From NCBI GenBank assembly GCA_016939365.1, contig JAFGHD010000074.1:1-47229 (forward strand): a DNA stretch of 47,229 bases. Direction: 5' to 3'. The notes below the pieces were generated by a model, which was not told the origin of the DNA, did not search any database, and saw only the letters and a program-made list of their open reading frames with translations. Of the stretch, positions 14,471 to 18,562 are shown in pieces; positions within the stretch are counted from its first letter, which is position 1; each line of letters opens with the position of its first letter. This stretch comes from Bacteroidales bacterium. GTDB lineage: Bacteria > Bacteroidota > Bacteroidia > Bacteroidales > JAFGHD01. The position numbers and the translations under genes were made by a program.

Positions 14471-15994
14471 TTACCCCAGGCGTCCGACCCGTTGCTCCAC
14501 TTCTGTCAGTATCTCGCAGGACCTGACCAGTTCTTTCATTGTATTATGGTCCGGGTAGAGTGGCCTGTCCACATCGAGGAATTCCACATGCCGGCGGATC
14601 ACTTCCCTTGCGCACGCAACGCCTTTTCCAAACTGATAATCCCTGAAGTCGAGTGCCTGTGCAGCAGCCATGAATTCAATGCCGAGGATGCCATAGGCAT
14701 TGTCAAGTATTTGAAAATTTTTCTGGGCGGTGTTCATACCCATTGAGACGAAATCCTCCTGGTCGGCTGCTGCGGGAATGGACTGGATGGAGGCAGGCAT
14801 GGAAAGGATGCGTTGTTCAACGATGAGGGTATCGGCTGTATACTGGCTGAGCATCAGTCCGGAGAACATTCCTGCGCCCTTTGTGAGGAACGCAGGCAGG
14901 CCGACGCTGAGGGCAGGATTGTTCAGCCGGTTCATTCTTCTTTCGGAGAGGACGGAGACCATGGTGATGGCTGCCCCGGCCATATCCATGGGCAGTGAAA
15001 CCGGCGAGCCCTGAAAATTGGCGCCTGAAAGTTGCATATTTTCATCCGGAAAGAAGATGGGATTGTCACCCACACCATTGAGTTCGATCTCCACCTGAGA
15101 CCTGGCCCATCGCAGGGCATCGTGTGCTGTACCGATTACCTGGGGTGTGGATCGCATGGAATAGGCATCCTGCACCTTGCATTTGATCTTACCGGAGATG
15201 AGGTCCCCCCCCTCGACCAGCTTATTGATGGCACGGGCGCTTCTTATAGCTCCGGGGAACCCCCGCACCTCATGTATCTTATTATGATAGGGCTTCATAT
15301 TGGCCTTCAGTGCTTCGAGGGACATGGCAGCGGCGATCTCGGCCTGTTTCAGCCACCTGTCGGCATCGTACAGGAACAGTGCACTCATGGCAGTGAGCAC
15401 GTTCGATCCGTTGATCGTTGCCAGTCCGTCGCGGGCTTTGAGCCCCGGAACCTCGATACCCGCCTGGGTTAAGGCTTCCCTGCCTTCAAGAAGCTGACCC
15501 TTGTAATATGCCTTGCCTTCTCCCAGAAGCAGCAGGGCGATCTGCGACATGGGGGCCAGGTCACCGCACGCACCTACCGACCCCTTCATGCAAACAAATG
15601 GAGTCACACCCTTGTTGAGCATCTCCACCAGTGTCAGGGTGATCTCCGGCCGGCATCCGGAATTACCATGCGCATGAACATTCACCCGGTGCAGCATGGC
15701 TCCCCTGATCCAGTCCTCCGGCATGGGATCGCCGATGCCTGCAGCATGGTTGTATATCAGGTACTTCTGAAAATCCTTTACCTGATCGTCATTCAATACC
15801 ACTTCTGAGAACTCTCCGATCCCCGTGTTCACACCATACATGATCTCATGTGCCTCAATCTTTTTTTCAAGCATCGCACGGCATTTCCGGATCCGCGCCA
15901 GCGCCTCCGGATGCAATTCAACGTGTTCGTGGTGCCTGGCTACCTTCACGATATCCTCGATCGTCAGGCCGGCACCATAAATAATGATGGACAT
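14471..15994 (-). CDS. hutH: Histidine ammonia-lyase homologue with an Ala-Cys-Gly cofactor triad
   Basis: The Met at 15994 has a good ribosome binding site (AGGAGG, eight bases upstream). The 507-residue product is a full-length member of the MIO-dependent ammonia-lyases, which remove ammonia from histidine or an aromatic amino acid. Active-site residues align with the Pseudomonas histidase: Y53 (YGVNTG), H83 (NHAAGIG), N195 (INGSN), Q275, Y278 and R281 (QDAYSMRS), and E413 (DQEDFVSM). The Glu in the last motif favours histidine over tyrosine or phenylalanine. The MIO-forming triad at 142-144 is Ala-Cys-Gly (GCG TGC GGT) instead of Ala-Ser-Gly. A Ser143Cys mutant of the Pseudomonas enzyme is reported to mature to an active enzyme, so activity is plausible. 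The other histidine-degradation genes (hutU, hutI, formiminotransferase) are not in the window, so the role could differ from standard histidine degradation. Confidence 0.88.
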   Translation of the reverse strand: MSIIIYGAGLTIEDIVKVARHHEHVELHPEALARIRKCRAMLEKKIEAHEIMYGVNTGIGEFSEVVLNDDQVKDFQKYLIYNHAAGIGDPMPEDWIRGAMLHRVNVHAHGNSGCRPEITLTLVEMLNKGVTPFVCMKGSVGACGDLAPMSQIALLLLGEGKAYYKGQLLEGREALTQAGIEVPGLKARDGLATINGSNVLTAMSALFLYDADRWLKQAEIAAAMSLEALKANMKPYHNKIHEVRGFPGAIRSARAINKLVEGGDLISGKIKCKVQDAYSMRSTPQVIGTAHDALRWARSQVEIELNGVGDNPIFFPDENMQLSGANFQGSPVSLPMDMAGAAITMVSVLSERRMNRLNNPALSVGLPAFLTKGAGMFSGLMLSQYTADTLIVEQRILSMPASIQSIPAAADQEDFVSMGMNTAQKNFQILDNAYGILGIEFMAAAQALDFRDYQFGKGVACAREVIRRHVEFLDVDRPLYPDHNTMKELVRSCEILTEVEQRVGRLG

Positions 15995-16363
15995 TGGTAT
16001 TTCCTCCTGTCTTTTTATGTACTGATTGATGAATTGATCGATAACGACGGCCAATAACAATTGTGCTGCCGTTCATTATGTTGAATCAGGAAAATCCTTT
16101 CCGCGGCCGTTTCAGGGAAAGGAACGGACAGACACCATCCCATCACCATGGGCCATAAGGGATCGCCCTGATACTCCGTCAGCGCAGCTTTTCAGTGTTT
16201 CAGAAAAGTGCAGTACGGTTGATCTTGATCTTGAATTTGAGATTCCAGTTTTTCATCCTGAAAAGGCAGTGTAAAAGTAATCATATCAGCTTTCAGGCCG
16301 GAAATCAAAACAAAACGAGGATTATTGTCCGGTCACGAATGTACGGTCAGTTATCCCGACTCG
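15995..16363. other. Intergenic region of 369 bases between hisS and the ammonia-lyase gene
   Basis: No convincing gene is present; the plus-strand frame around 16195-16380 is short and runs into hisS. A minus-strand TACTTTTA at about 16270 resembles a -7 element with the last base changed. The flanking ten bases AAAAGTAATC also occur upstream of susC near 13674. I see no hairpin with a T-run that would end hisS. Confidence 0.4.
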
Positions 16364-17914
16364 TTACAGATGTTCCCTGATATACCCGATCAGCTGATCC
16401 CTGGGTATTTCCGATTGCACCCGGTTTTTCCATTCCTCCTTGTCCTTGATATCGGTAGTTTCCCTGCCCAGCCTGAGATCTTTTACGGTCACAGAACCTT
16501 TTTTTAATTCATCCTCTCCCATGAGGACTGCGAAAGGGCTGTTTTTGCGGTCGGCATAGGCCATCTGCTTCTTCAATCCTTTTTGTGCCCCGAAATAGAT
16601 TTCGGTATCGATACCTGCTTCCCTGAGGGTATGGGCAATGATGTGATATTCATTCAGGAGGGTTGTATCAAAGACCAGGATGAGAACGGGTCCTGCTGCC
16701 GATGCCTTGTATTGCCCGGTCATCATCAGGAGTTCTGCCAGCCGGTCCACTCCGATGGATGCTCCTGAGGCAGGAATTTTCATACCCAGAAGACGTTCCA
16801 CCAGACCGTCATATCTGCCTCCCCCGCAGATCGATCCCACTTTCCGTTGTCTTCCCCGGTGATCGGTATAACTCAGATCCGAGACCACTTCAAATACAGG
16901 GCCTGTGTAATAGGACATACCCCTGACCAGTGACGGATCGAACACGATACGGGTTTCATCCATTTCCCATGCATTCAGCACATCGTGGATGGTTTGCAAC
17001 TCATTGAGGCCTTCTTCAAGGTCATTATTCATTTGTTTTTCACTCCTGATGGCACTCAGCACTTCGGTACGGGTGGCTGTGCCGCTGAACTTTTCAAGGA
17101 AGGCCATCACGCGGGATAATTCGTTCTGCCCCAAATTGAGGCCTGGGACAAAGGCTCCGGACGCGTCCGGCCGTCCCTTCCCCAGCTCGGATTCGATGCC
17201 CGGGAGACCTATTTTGTCCAATTTATCGATGACCCTGAGGATGGCATCCTCCCTCTGTTCCGGAATGCCTGCAACTGAGAGAAATCCTTTCAGGATTTTT
17301 CTGTTGTTAACCTTTACCTGATAGGAATCTGCCGGTAAACCGATCGCCTCCATGGCTCGTGACAGGATCATACATGCCTCGGCATCGACATGCTGATCGG
17401 ATGAGCCCACCGTATCGAAGTCGACCTGCCAGAATTCACGAAACCTACCGGGATCGAGCTTGTACTCGTAACGAAATACCGGGCCGTACTGGTAACGCCT
17501 GAACAACGGAGCTTTATCAGGGCTGAGCCCTCCCTTCAGACTGTCATTCCAGAGCCTTTCCGCATACAACCTGGCCAGTGGAGCGGTCAGGTCATATCTC
17601 AATGCCAGGTAATACCGGTTCATCACCACATGATCCCATTCATTCCGGATTTCACGGCCATCGCCCGCCAGCATCGGTTCTGCTTCGGGATTATGGAATG
17701 AATATATACCCTCCTCAACGGTGTCTGCATCGGGAAGATACTTGCCGAGGTTATCTGCATACTCCAGCAGGGGAGTATCCCAGTGCTCAAATCCATACAA
17801 TCGGTATATCCCGGCTGCAGCACGGATGATGTGCCAGCGCAGCTCATTCATCTGCGGGCCAATGTCCCTGAATCCCTTGATCTTGCGTGGAACGATCCCT
17901 GGTTGTGGATCCAT
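16364..17914 (-). CDS. hisS: Histidyl-tRNA synthetase, divergent alphaproteobacterial-like type
   Basis: The Met at 17914 (MDPQPG) is chosen because it precedes the conserved GFRDI opening. The 516-residue enzyme attaches histidine to tRNA-His. Class II motifs are present: motif 2 at about 139-162 (FRRYQYGPVFRYE) and the histidine-binding segments LVRGMSYYTGPVFEV and ICGGGRYDGLV. A C-terminal anticodon-binding domain includes GAQKGLKKQMAYADRKN. The motif 2 loop that contacts the tRNA acceptor end reads YEYKLDPGRFREF followed by DFDTVG. Typical Bacteroidota enzymes have a RPQ-GRYREF loop here. The K--PGRFR form and LRYDLTAPLAR are instead characteristic of the divergent alphaproteobacterial HisRS group. 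A tRNA-His gene with matching unusual identity bases lies 124 bases upstream, so the pair appears co-evolved and probably co-transcribed. Confidence 0.93.
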   Translation of the reverse strand: MDPQPGIVPRKIKGFRDIGPQMNELRWHIIRAAAGIYRLYGFEHWDTPLLEYADNLGKYLPDADTVEEGIYSFHNPEAEPMLAGDGREIRNEWDHVVMNRYYLALRYDLTAPLARLYAERLWNDSLKGGLSPDKAPLFRRYQYGPVFRYEYKLDPGRFREFWQVDFDTVGSSDQHVDAEACMILSRAMEAIGLPADSYQVKVNNRKILKGFLSVAGIPEQREDAILRVIDKLDKIGLPGIESELGKGRPDASGAFVPGLNLGQNELSRVMAFLEKFSGTATRTEVLSAIRSEKQMNNDLEEGLNELQTIHDVLNAWEMDETRIVFDPSLVRGMSYYTGPVFEVVSDLSYTDHRGRQRKVGSICGGGRYDGLVERLLGMKIPASGASIGVDRLAELLMMTGQYKASAAGPVLILVFDTTLLNEYHIIAHTLREAGIDTEIYFGAQKGLKKQMAYADRKNSPFAVLMGEDELKKGSVTVKDLRLGRETTDIKDKEEWKNRVQSEIPRDQLIGYIREHL

Positions 17915-18041
17915 AGCGTCATGGAAAAATAAATAGGGCCGCAAAGTATTGCCTGCAAAGGTAACATGGAGCGGATTGTGTTTTCCGAACAATCCGTCCG
18001 TACCACCCATGATGCAGATCCCATCAGCCCCCGGGTGATAA

Positions 18042-18118
18042 TGGCACCGTCGAAGAGATTCGAACCCTTGACCTCCTGATCCACAGTCAGGCGCTCTAAC
18101 CAGCTGAGCTACGACGGC
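18042..18118 (-). tRNA. tRNA-His (GUG anticodon), without encoded G-1, with G1-U72 and G73
   Basis: A complete cloverleaf can be folded on the minus strand. The acceptor stem is GCCGTCG / CGACGGT, followed by U8, and the D-arm is GCTC ... GAGC. The anticodon stem is CCTGA / TCAGG with loop CTGTGGA (anticodon GUG, codon CAC), the variable loop is AGGTC, and the T-arm is AAGGG TTCGAAT CTCTT. The discriminator is G73 and CCA is encoded. Bacterial tRNA-His normally has an encoded extra G at -1 paired to C73; here the base at -1 is T and position 73 is G. The last acceptor pair is a G1-U72 wobble. Loss of G-1 together with G1-U72 is known from an alphaproteobacterial clade that uses a divergent HisRS, and such a HisRS gene follows directly downstream. 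Confidence 0.93.
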
Positions 18119-18134: not shown

Positions 18135-18165
18135 CAAAATTAATCAATGTTCACCAATATGCAAA
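18135..18165 (-). promoter_or_regulatory. Promoter of tRNA-His and hisS
   Basis: On the minus strand a TTTG (18162-18165) and a TAATTTTG followed by CA (18135-18142) are spaced by 19 bases, an excellent match to the Bacteroidota consensus. The predicted start, about 18128, lies 10 bases before the mature tRNA. A weaker TACCTTTGCA at 17956-17963, lacking a good -33, could add a second start for hisS alone. Confidence 0.75.
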
Positions 18166-18283: not shown

Positions 18284-18499
18284 TTAATCCTGACCGAAGT
18301 AAATAAGAACCGATGCGACGATCATCAGCAACAGGAAGAAGGTGACCATCCTTCCGAAGACCCTGTTGAGTTTTATATTTCCCCTGTTGAGAGACCGGGC
18401 CTTGACCCAAAGGCCCAGGATAAAGCCCGTAAATGCACAGGCCACCACAATGTAGAGTATCGTCGGATTCATAGGTGATGTGGAGATGATCCACTTCAT
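18284..18499 (-). CDS. Small membrane protein of unknown function
   Basis: The frame gives 71 residues from the ATG at 18497-18499 (MKWIISTSP), or 62 from the ATG at 18470-18472. It has two clear membrane helices (TILYIVVACAFTGFILGLWV and FFLLLMIVASVLIYFG) separated by a basic loop (KARSLNRGNIKLNRVFGR), and ends after GQD. The positive loop suggests both ends face the periplasm. I recognise no family. It stands alone, divergent from the glycosyltransferase gene at 18563, with a TATTTTTG element overlapping the start region at 18509-18516. Two well-formed membrane helices and codon use support a real gene. Confidence 0.6.
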   Translation of the reverse strand: MKWIISTSPMNPTILYIVVACAFTGFILGLWVKARSLNRGNIKLNRVFGRMVTFFLLLMIVASVLIYFGQD

Positions 18500-18562
18500 A
18501 ATACCGCTCAAAAATACGAAACGGGGTCAAAATGATTAATTTTGATTTCTGATCGGGGCCGG

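Follow-up and report, generated by a model that had tools for sequence, protein, structure and literature searches.

A tRNA-His without G-1:C73 and a divergent histidyl-tRNA synthetase in a Bacteroidales genome: a probable transferred pair with its own identity rules

The window (i.e., the whole 47,229-nucleotide stretch of DNA analysed here) carries a tRNA-His gene and, starting 128 nt downstream on the same strand, hisS, the gene for histidyl-tRNA synthetase (HisRS). The features at this locus are as follows:

14471 to 16060, minus strand: hutH-like histidine ammonia-lyase gene (NCBIfam/Pfam), directly downstream of hisS; context, not part of the pair.
16364 to 17914, minus strand: hisS, histidyl-tRNA synthetase, 516 aa (NCBIfam TIGR00442, 335.6 bits against a cut-off of 286.75; the PDB fold matches are HisRS).
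16889 to 16924, minus strand: HisA histidine-binding motif, RGMSYYTGPVFE, intact by alignment.
17432 to 17470, minus strand: HisRS motif-2 tRNA-acceptor loop, YEYKLDPGRFREF, without RPQ in the alignments.
18042 to 18118, minus strand: tRNA-His (GUG) with encoded CCA (ARAGORN; Rfam tRNA, 69.1 bits; positions read from sequence and alignment).
18135 to 18165, minus strand: Bacteroidota-type promoter, TTTG-N19-TAATTTTG (TTTG-N19-TAnnTTTG).

An extra G-1 facing C73 is the almost universal identity tag of tRNA-His. The window gene, 5'-T(-1) GCCGTCG TA ... CGACGGT G(73) CCA, encodes seven acceptor pairs with U-1, G1:U72, C2:G71, and G73; direct reading thus confirms the seven acceptor bases, T at -1, G1-U72, and G73 of the original prediction and places the gene outside the canonical G-1:C73 class, with U-1 and G73 instead. 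MFE folding of the naked tRNA was uninformative (z ~0.3). The promoter, ~17 nt upstream of the tRNA, exactly matches the pattern TTTGN{18,20}TANNTTTG, which occurs twice in the window against 0.28 expected. A search for a terminator-like site between the window's tRNA-His and hisS found none, and co-transcription of the two genes from one promoter is conceivable from this layout. The earlier claim that tRNA and enzyme share a strong promoter stands in so far as one promoter precedes the tRNA; its sharing with hisS does not, several relatives having an intervening terminator-like hairpin. In these relatives, a hairpin with a T-run parts tRNA-His from hisS (L181:3918-3950, L182:3920-3957, L183:374-405, L187:253-287, and L115), suggesting possible attenuation or separate termination. 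Upstream of the tRNA, a small ORF of ~66-69 aa with hydrophobic stretches (18296-18502, minus strand) had no match in Pfam or NCBIfam.

The enzyme belongs to the TIGR00442 hisS equivalog, with motifs 2 and 3, HisA, HisB, and the C-terminal anticodon domain intact. A longer frame starting at 18010 was set aside for 17914, being probably too long because homologues begin at about residue 33. The motif-2 loop of the window HisRS aligns as RYEYKLDPGRFREF against RADRPQKGRYREF in its canonical Bacteroidota counterpart: KLDPGR replaces RPQKGR, Asp stands where alphaproteobacterial enzymes have Gly, and the loop is one residue longer than canonical and alphaproteobacterial loops. The absence of the RPQ-GR form, noted in the original prediction, is therefore borne out by alignment. 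By group, canonical relatives have RPQKGR, the window clade mostly the longer KLDPGR loop, and Planctomycetota, alphaproteobacteria, and G464-like genomes KP(G/D/E)(P/L)GR. In ordinary Planctomycetota HisRS (L376-L389), the usually invariant motif-2 Gln varies between Q, A, and G, with the forms KPQKGR, RPARGR, KPGRGR, and SPAKGR. A structure model of the window HisRS is of medium quality, and we draw no pocket argument from it because the motif-2 loop has pLDDT < 50. Shortly after the HisA motif, the window enzyme has V376 (P0001 numbering), where 20 of 21 relatives without G73 have E; the genus-specific residues come from two genomes, too few to tie to G73.

The source genome (G000; 3.67 Mb, 197 contigs, 97% complete) contains a single tRNA-His among 38 tRNAs by anticodon typing and pattern scans, 30 of them assigned by anticodon and the remaining eight, long-variable-arm types, judged by length. 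A profile search found one HisRS above the cut-off, so that a second tRNA-His or hisS, whose presence the original prediction had left to be settled, was found by neither scan. Weak HisRS matches in C141 sit in a 658-aa frame that is probably a different class II synthetase. The 47-kb contig itself encodes SusD, TonB-plug, and T9SS-sorting proteins, and a congener (G001) has the same locus; the early judgement that misbinning was unlikely has held.

HisRS matches in 60 relatives are bimodal, with six genomes at 54-100% identity to the window enzyme and the others near 33%. Across the order, the divergent HisRS occurs in 19 of 393 sampled genomes (~5%), in nine genera at 54-64% identity, and the usual HisRS of the order is ~33% identical; ten of the 19, searched with Pfam PF13393, have a single HisRS each. 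A phylum-wide Bacteroidota sample yielded eight carriers in 395, including near-complete genomes from other orders. Many members are MAGs, and G593 (6 contigs, 100% complete) is a high-quality carrier. The best 80 of at least 587 matches in a scan of GTDB contigs came from Bacteroidota MAGs (labelled Saprospirales and Chitinophagales), Planctomycetota, two unplaced bacteria, and many alphaproteobacteria, whose enzymes are 41-44% identical to that of the window among the matches listed. Fifteen of 392 Planctomycetota, query included, have a HisRS at least 52% identical to that of the query MAG. The suggestion that this genome holds an independent variant thus gives way to a branch of a family present in Planctomycetota, alphaproteobacteria, and several Bacteroidota groups. 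In three order genomes (G031, G054, and G048; 94-100% complete), the HisRS search gave nothing at E <= 1e-5, although a canonical tRNA-His is present in G031 and G054; an assembly gap or an unrecognised HisRS may be the reason.

The tRNA ends follow the enzyme. Among order genomes with a recovered tRNA-His, all 44 with canonical HisRS have G-1, G1:C72, and C73, whereas G-1:C73 occurs in none of the 12 with divergent HisRS (Fisher p = 1.8e-12, kinship among genomes ignored). Two further canonical tRNA-His, from order genomes where HisRS was not found, lie outside the 44, and the pattern search recovered no tRNA-His from seven of the 19 divergent-HisRS members (assembly gaps or divergence). Alignment of related tRNA-His genes, which the original prediction had proposed, thus reveals ends that covary with HisRS type. 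C2:G71 is present in 35/35 divergent tRNA-His, and U2:A71 in 21/22 canonical Bacteroidota ones. All sampled alphaproteobacterial and Planctomycetota family members have G1:U72 and A73, as do the other Bacteroidota members examined, except for C1:G72 A73 in BWSM_97, NAT133, and MAG-174, G1:C72 A73 in G036, G078, and G181, and the G73 of the window genus. At position -1, divergent members have any of T, A, C, and G (U in the window and many others), so this base is not conserved. G73 was seen in two genomes only, G000 and G001, with A73 in the other divergent-HisRS genomes sampled. As A73 is the state of sister lineages and G73 was seen in just two genomes of one genus, the latter is most simply read as a later change, neither ancestral nor intermediate, and the idea of an intermediate variant is not upheld. 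Two side observations concern these ends: a 95% complete genome (G037; locus L104, G037:C308) has a tRNA-His with A1:U72, A73, and no G-1, its hisS not being found, and the G1:C72, A73 tRNA-His of L128 and L129 (G181 and G078) have in common the apparent acceptor-stem mismatches U5-U68 and C6-U67.

Maximum-likelihood HisRS trees (LG+C20+F+G4, PMSF) unite the G-1-less family in one group (100/99 and 100/98 in two trees) beside ordinary Planctomycetota HisRS (94/93). A single clade, nested in a mixed Planctomycetota grade, holds the alphaproteobacterial enzymes. The window HisRS clade is separate (100/100) on a long stem; support is weak (81-90 or open) at the backbone nodes that connect the Bacteroidota clade and RA.bin91 with Planctomycetota and alphaproteobacteria. 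Forcing the window clade to join canonical Bacteroidota HisRS was rejected (AU p = 6.7e-12), and the enzyme accordingly falls outside the ordinary Bacteroidota HisRS, on the tree that the original prediction had named as a check. Forcing it together with the alphaproteobacteria alone lowered lnL by 20 and was marginally rejected (p = 0.045). Human HARS, on a very long branch, does not group with the G-1-less family in the best tree, nor is that grouping rejected (p = 0.32). In a tRNA tree of 74 columns, divergent and canonical tRNA-His separate at 99/89 and in 98% of bootstrap trees. With the acceptor stem left out, identity of the window tRNA reaches 88% with Planctomycetota tRNA-His and does not exceed 83% with the canonical tRNA-His of Bacteroidota; the window anticodon loop has A38 versus T38 in canonical relatives. 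As the split involves bases outside the acceptor stem, it points to a tRNA imported together with its enzyme; a two-step route, in which the enzyme came first and the host tRNA was adapted afterwards, fits the tRNA tree less well.

The tRNA-His gene lies immediately upstream of hisS at ten loci (i.e., the window, G001, G245, BWSM_97, NAT133, MAG-174, RA.bin91, and the Planctomycetota G919, G920, and G903), ~3 to 6 kb from it in G593, G778, G464, and G658, and beside it in 0/24 canonical loci (1.5 kb flanks). The two genes are apart in many divergent members, including all sampled alphaproteobacteria. By tblastn over the loci, many Bacteroidota have an ammonia-lyase gene beside hisS, with either HisRS type; at L056, for instance, a 79% identical ammonia-lyase homologue adjoins a canonical hisS. 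The hutH-like gene was therefore dropped as part of a moving cassette, and its presence beside canonical hisS suggests that the foreign hisS occupies the native chromosomal place.

We propose that a matched tRNA-His/HisRS pair came by horizontal transfer, displaced the native pair, and then drifted in its identity elements, a reading to which we assign a probability of roughly 0.87. The central claim of the original prediction, an identity-switched pair present as sole copies in a Bacteroidota genome, is supported by the sequence, the covariation, and both trees. Bacteroidota ancestors would have acquired a pair not using G-1:C73, most likely with tRNA-His and hisS joined in one unit, and this pair then would have fully displaced the native tRNA-His and HisRS. 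Such a joint move would solve the problem of single swaps, since donor partners fit each other but probably not those of the host; a pair orthogonal to the resident one could enter without disturbance, after which the native pair could be lost. The Caulobacter tRNA-His/HisRS pair is orthogonal to that of E. coli (PMC3875453); its HisRS reads A73, U72, and the anticodon and needs no G-1 (PMC9976931), A73 being a minor element (PMC5370408). Homology and covariation predict that the window pair would likewise function without G-1. Its enzyme would charge its own tRNA through the anticodon and the acceptor end, with no extra 5' nucleotide, recognising C2:G71 together with the G1:U72 and A73 of most members by way of the altered motif-2 loop, where other residues replace the Gln and the next Lys of RPQKGR. 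After transfer, the acceptor end may have drifted to C1:G72, G1:C72, and perhaps A1:U72 elsewhere, and from A73 to G73 in the window genus, G73 presumably being tolerated or preferred by the window HisRS. The minor role of A73 in Caulobacter makes the latter drift plausible, with U72, C2:G71, and the anticodon kept.

Several other explanations deserve weighing. The alphaproteobacteria share the logic of no G-1, G1:U72, and A73, and their enzymes are 41-44% identical to that of the window among the matches listed, as expected if the pair derived specifically from them; yet their enzymes form a clade of their own that groups with Planctomycetota, joining them alone to the window clade costs 20 lnL units (p = 0.045), and the tRNA–hisS linkage is absent from the sampled alphaproteobacterial loci. 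We hence consider this origin unlikely: the A73, G-1-less system extends beyond the alphaproteobacteria by the sequences sampled, and they are probably not the source of the window hisS. Still less probable is that no transfer took place, i.e., that G-1 and C73 disappeared in place from the host tRNA-His while the resident HisRS diverged to match. Convergence is a suggested reason why alphaproteobacterial and eukaryotic tRNA-His resemble each other (PMC5370408), and the hutH-type neighbour of canonical hisS still sits beside the window gene; against this, the AU test rejects a joint clade with canonical Bacteroidota HisRS (p = 6.7e-12), the tRNAs group across phyla by bases beyond the acceptor stem as well, and canonical relatives of the same order keep the normal pair. 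We regard in-place change as very unlikely.

Identity might also still reside at position -1, were the mature tRNA to receive an unencoded G-1 (Thg1-like) or RNase P to retain a U-1 pairing with A73 or G73. The U-1 of the window and many members could indeed pair with A73 or wobble with G73, and Thg1-like proteins exist in some bacteria (PMC3701042). But members of one HisRS type differ in their -1 base (T, A, G, or C), G1 is encoded inside a full 7-bp stem, neither A73 nor G73 could pair with a G-1, the enzyme lacks the motif-2 Gln associated with G-1:C73, and Caulobacter uses no G-1 (PMC9976931); the idea is improbable. An assembly or binning artefact, with an alphaproteobacterial or planctomycete fragment inside a Bacteroidota MAG, is scarcely credible: the genome is in 197 contigs and its nearest relatives here are MAGs, but SusD, TonB-plug, and T9SS-sorting genes and a Bacteroidota promoter lie on the same 47-kb contig, G001 of the same genus shares the arrangement, the tRNA, and G73, the pair recurs in near-complete genomes from other groups, and the HisRS is only ~43% identical to alphaproteobacterial and planctomycete enzymes among the matches listed.

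Transfer of a matched pair thus remains our preferred reading, and the kind of system is already known. The A73, G-1-less system of alphaproteobacteria was described by Ardell & Andersson 2006, Wang et al. 2007, and Yuan et al. 2011, as relayed in PMC9976931, PMC3937112, PMC3875453, and PMC5370408. Like that system (Caulobacter crescentus type), the window has no G-1, no C73, G1:U72, a single tRNA-His and HisRS, no Gln at the motif-2 loop position that reads C73, and an enzyme of the same family, albeit not nested in the alphaproteobacteria. Unlike it, the window lies in a different phylum and a separate clade, with insertions before motif 2, a loop one residue longer, G73 rather than A73 in its genus, a tRNA-His adjoining hisS, and sister lineages carrying C1:G72 and G1:C72. 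With the canonical pair of most Bacteroidales it shares the GUG anticodon, the class II HisRS fold, and intact HisA/HisB and motif 3, but it differs in lacking G-1:C73, in an enzyme only ~33% identical, and in KLDPGR for RPQKGR. Some protists have also lost G-1 as an identity element (Rao & Jackman, cited in PMC9976931), in separate lineages not known as transferred pairs, and CPR bacteria with archaeal-type TyrRS/TrpRS identities (PMC5370408) likewise follow foreign synthetase rules, for other amino acids and of archaeal origin. A search limited to open full text found the system reported for neither Bacteroidota nor Planctomycetota, and gave no account of the G73 form or of tRNA-His adjoining hisS; these seem new, with uncertain priority.

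It is an even bet whether tRNA-His and hisS have moved as a self-sufficient cassette among phyla (Planctomycetota, alphaproteobacteria, and several Bacteroidota groups), the alphaproteobacterial 'once in bacteria' switch being one instance of this, and whether the window genus has also dropped A73, with recognition through U72, C2:G71, and the anticodon. Its tRNA-His would then carry no determinant known for position 73 or -1, be it G-1, C73, or A73. The finding bears on the accepted single-origin claim for that switch. If the unit moves between phyla, the G-1-less system would be less safe as a marker, and the eukaryotic-donor story, which a later survey did not support (PMC5370408), would need rechecking. 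Joint arrival of both partners would explain how bacteria can exchange one core identity rule for another. The Bacteroidota would offer an acceptor-end series on related enzymes (G1:U72 A73, G1:U72 G73, G1:C72 A73, and C1:G72 A73), which would make stepwise evolution of tRNA recognition testable and provide new candidate orthogonal HisRS/tRNA pairs. Recurrence of this kind of pair in Planctomycetota and alphaproteobacteria suggests that matched sets can carry a core rule of the genetic code's machinery from one bacterial group to a distant one, the rule continuing to change.
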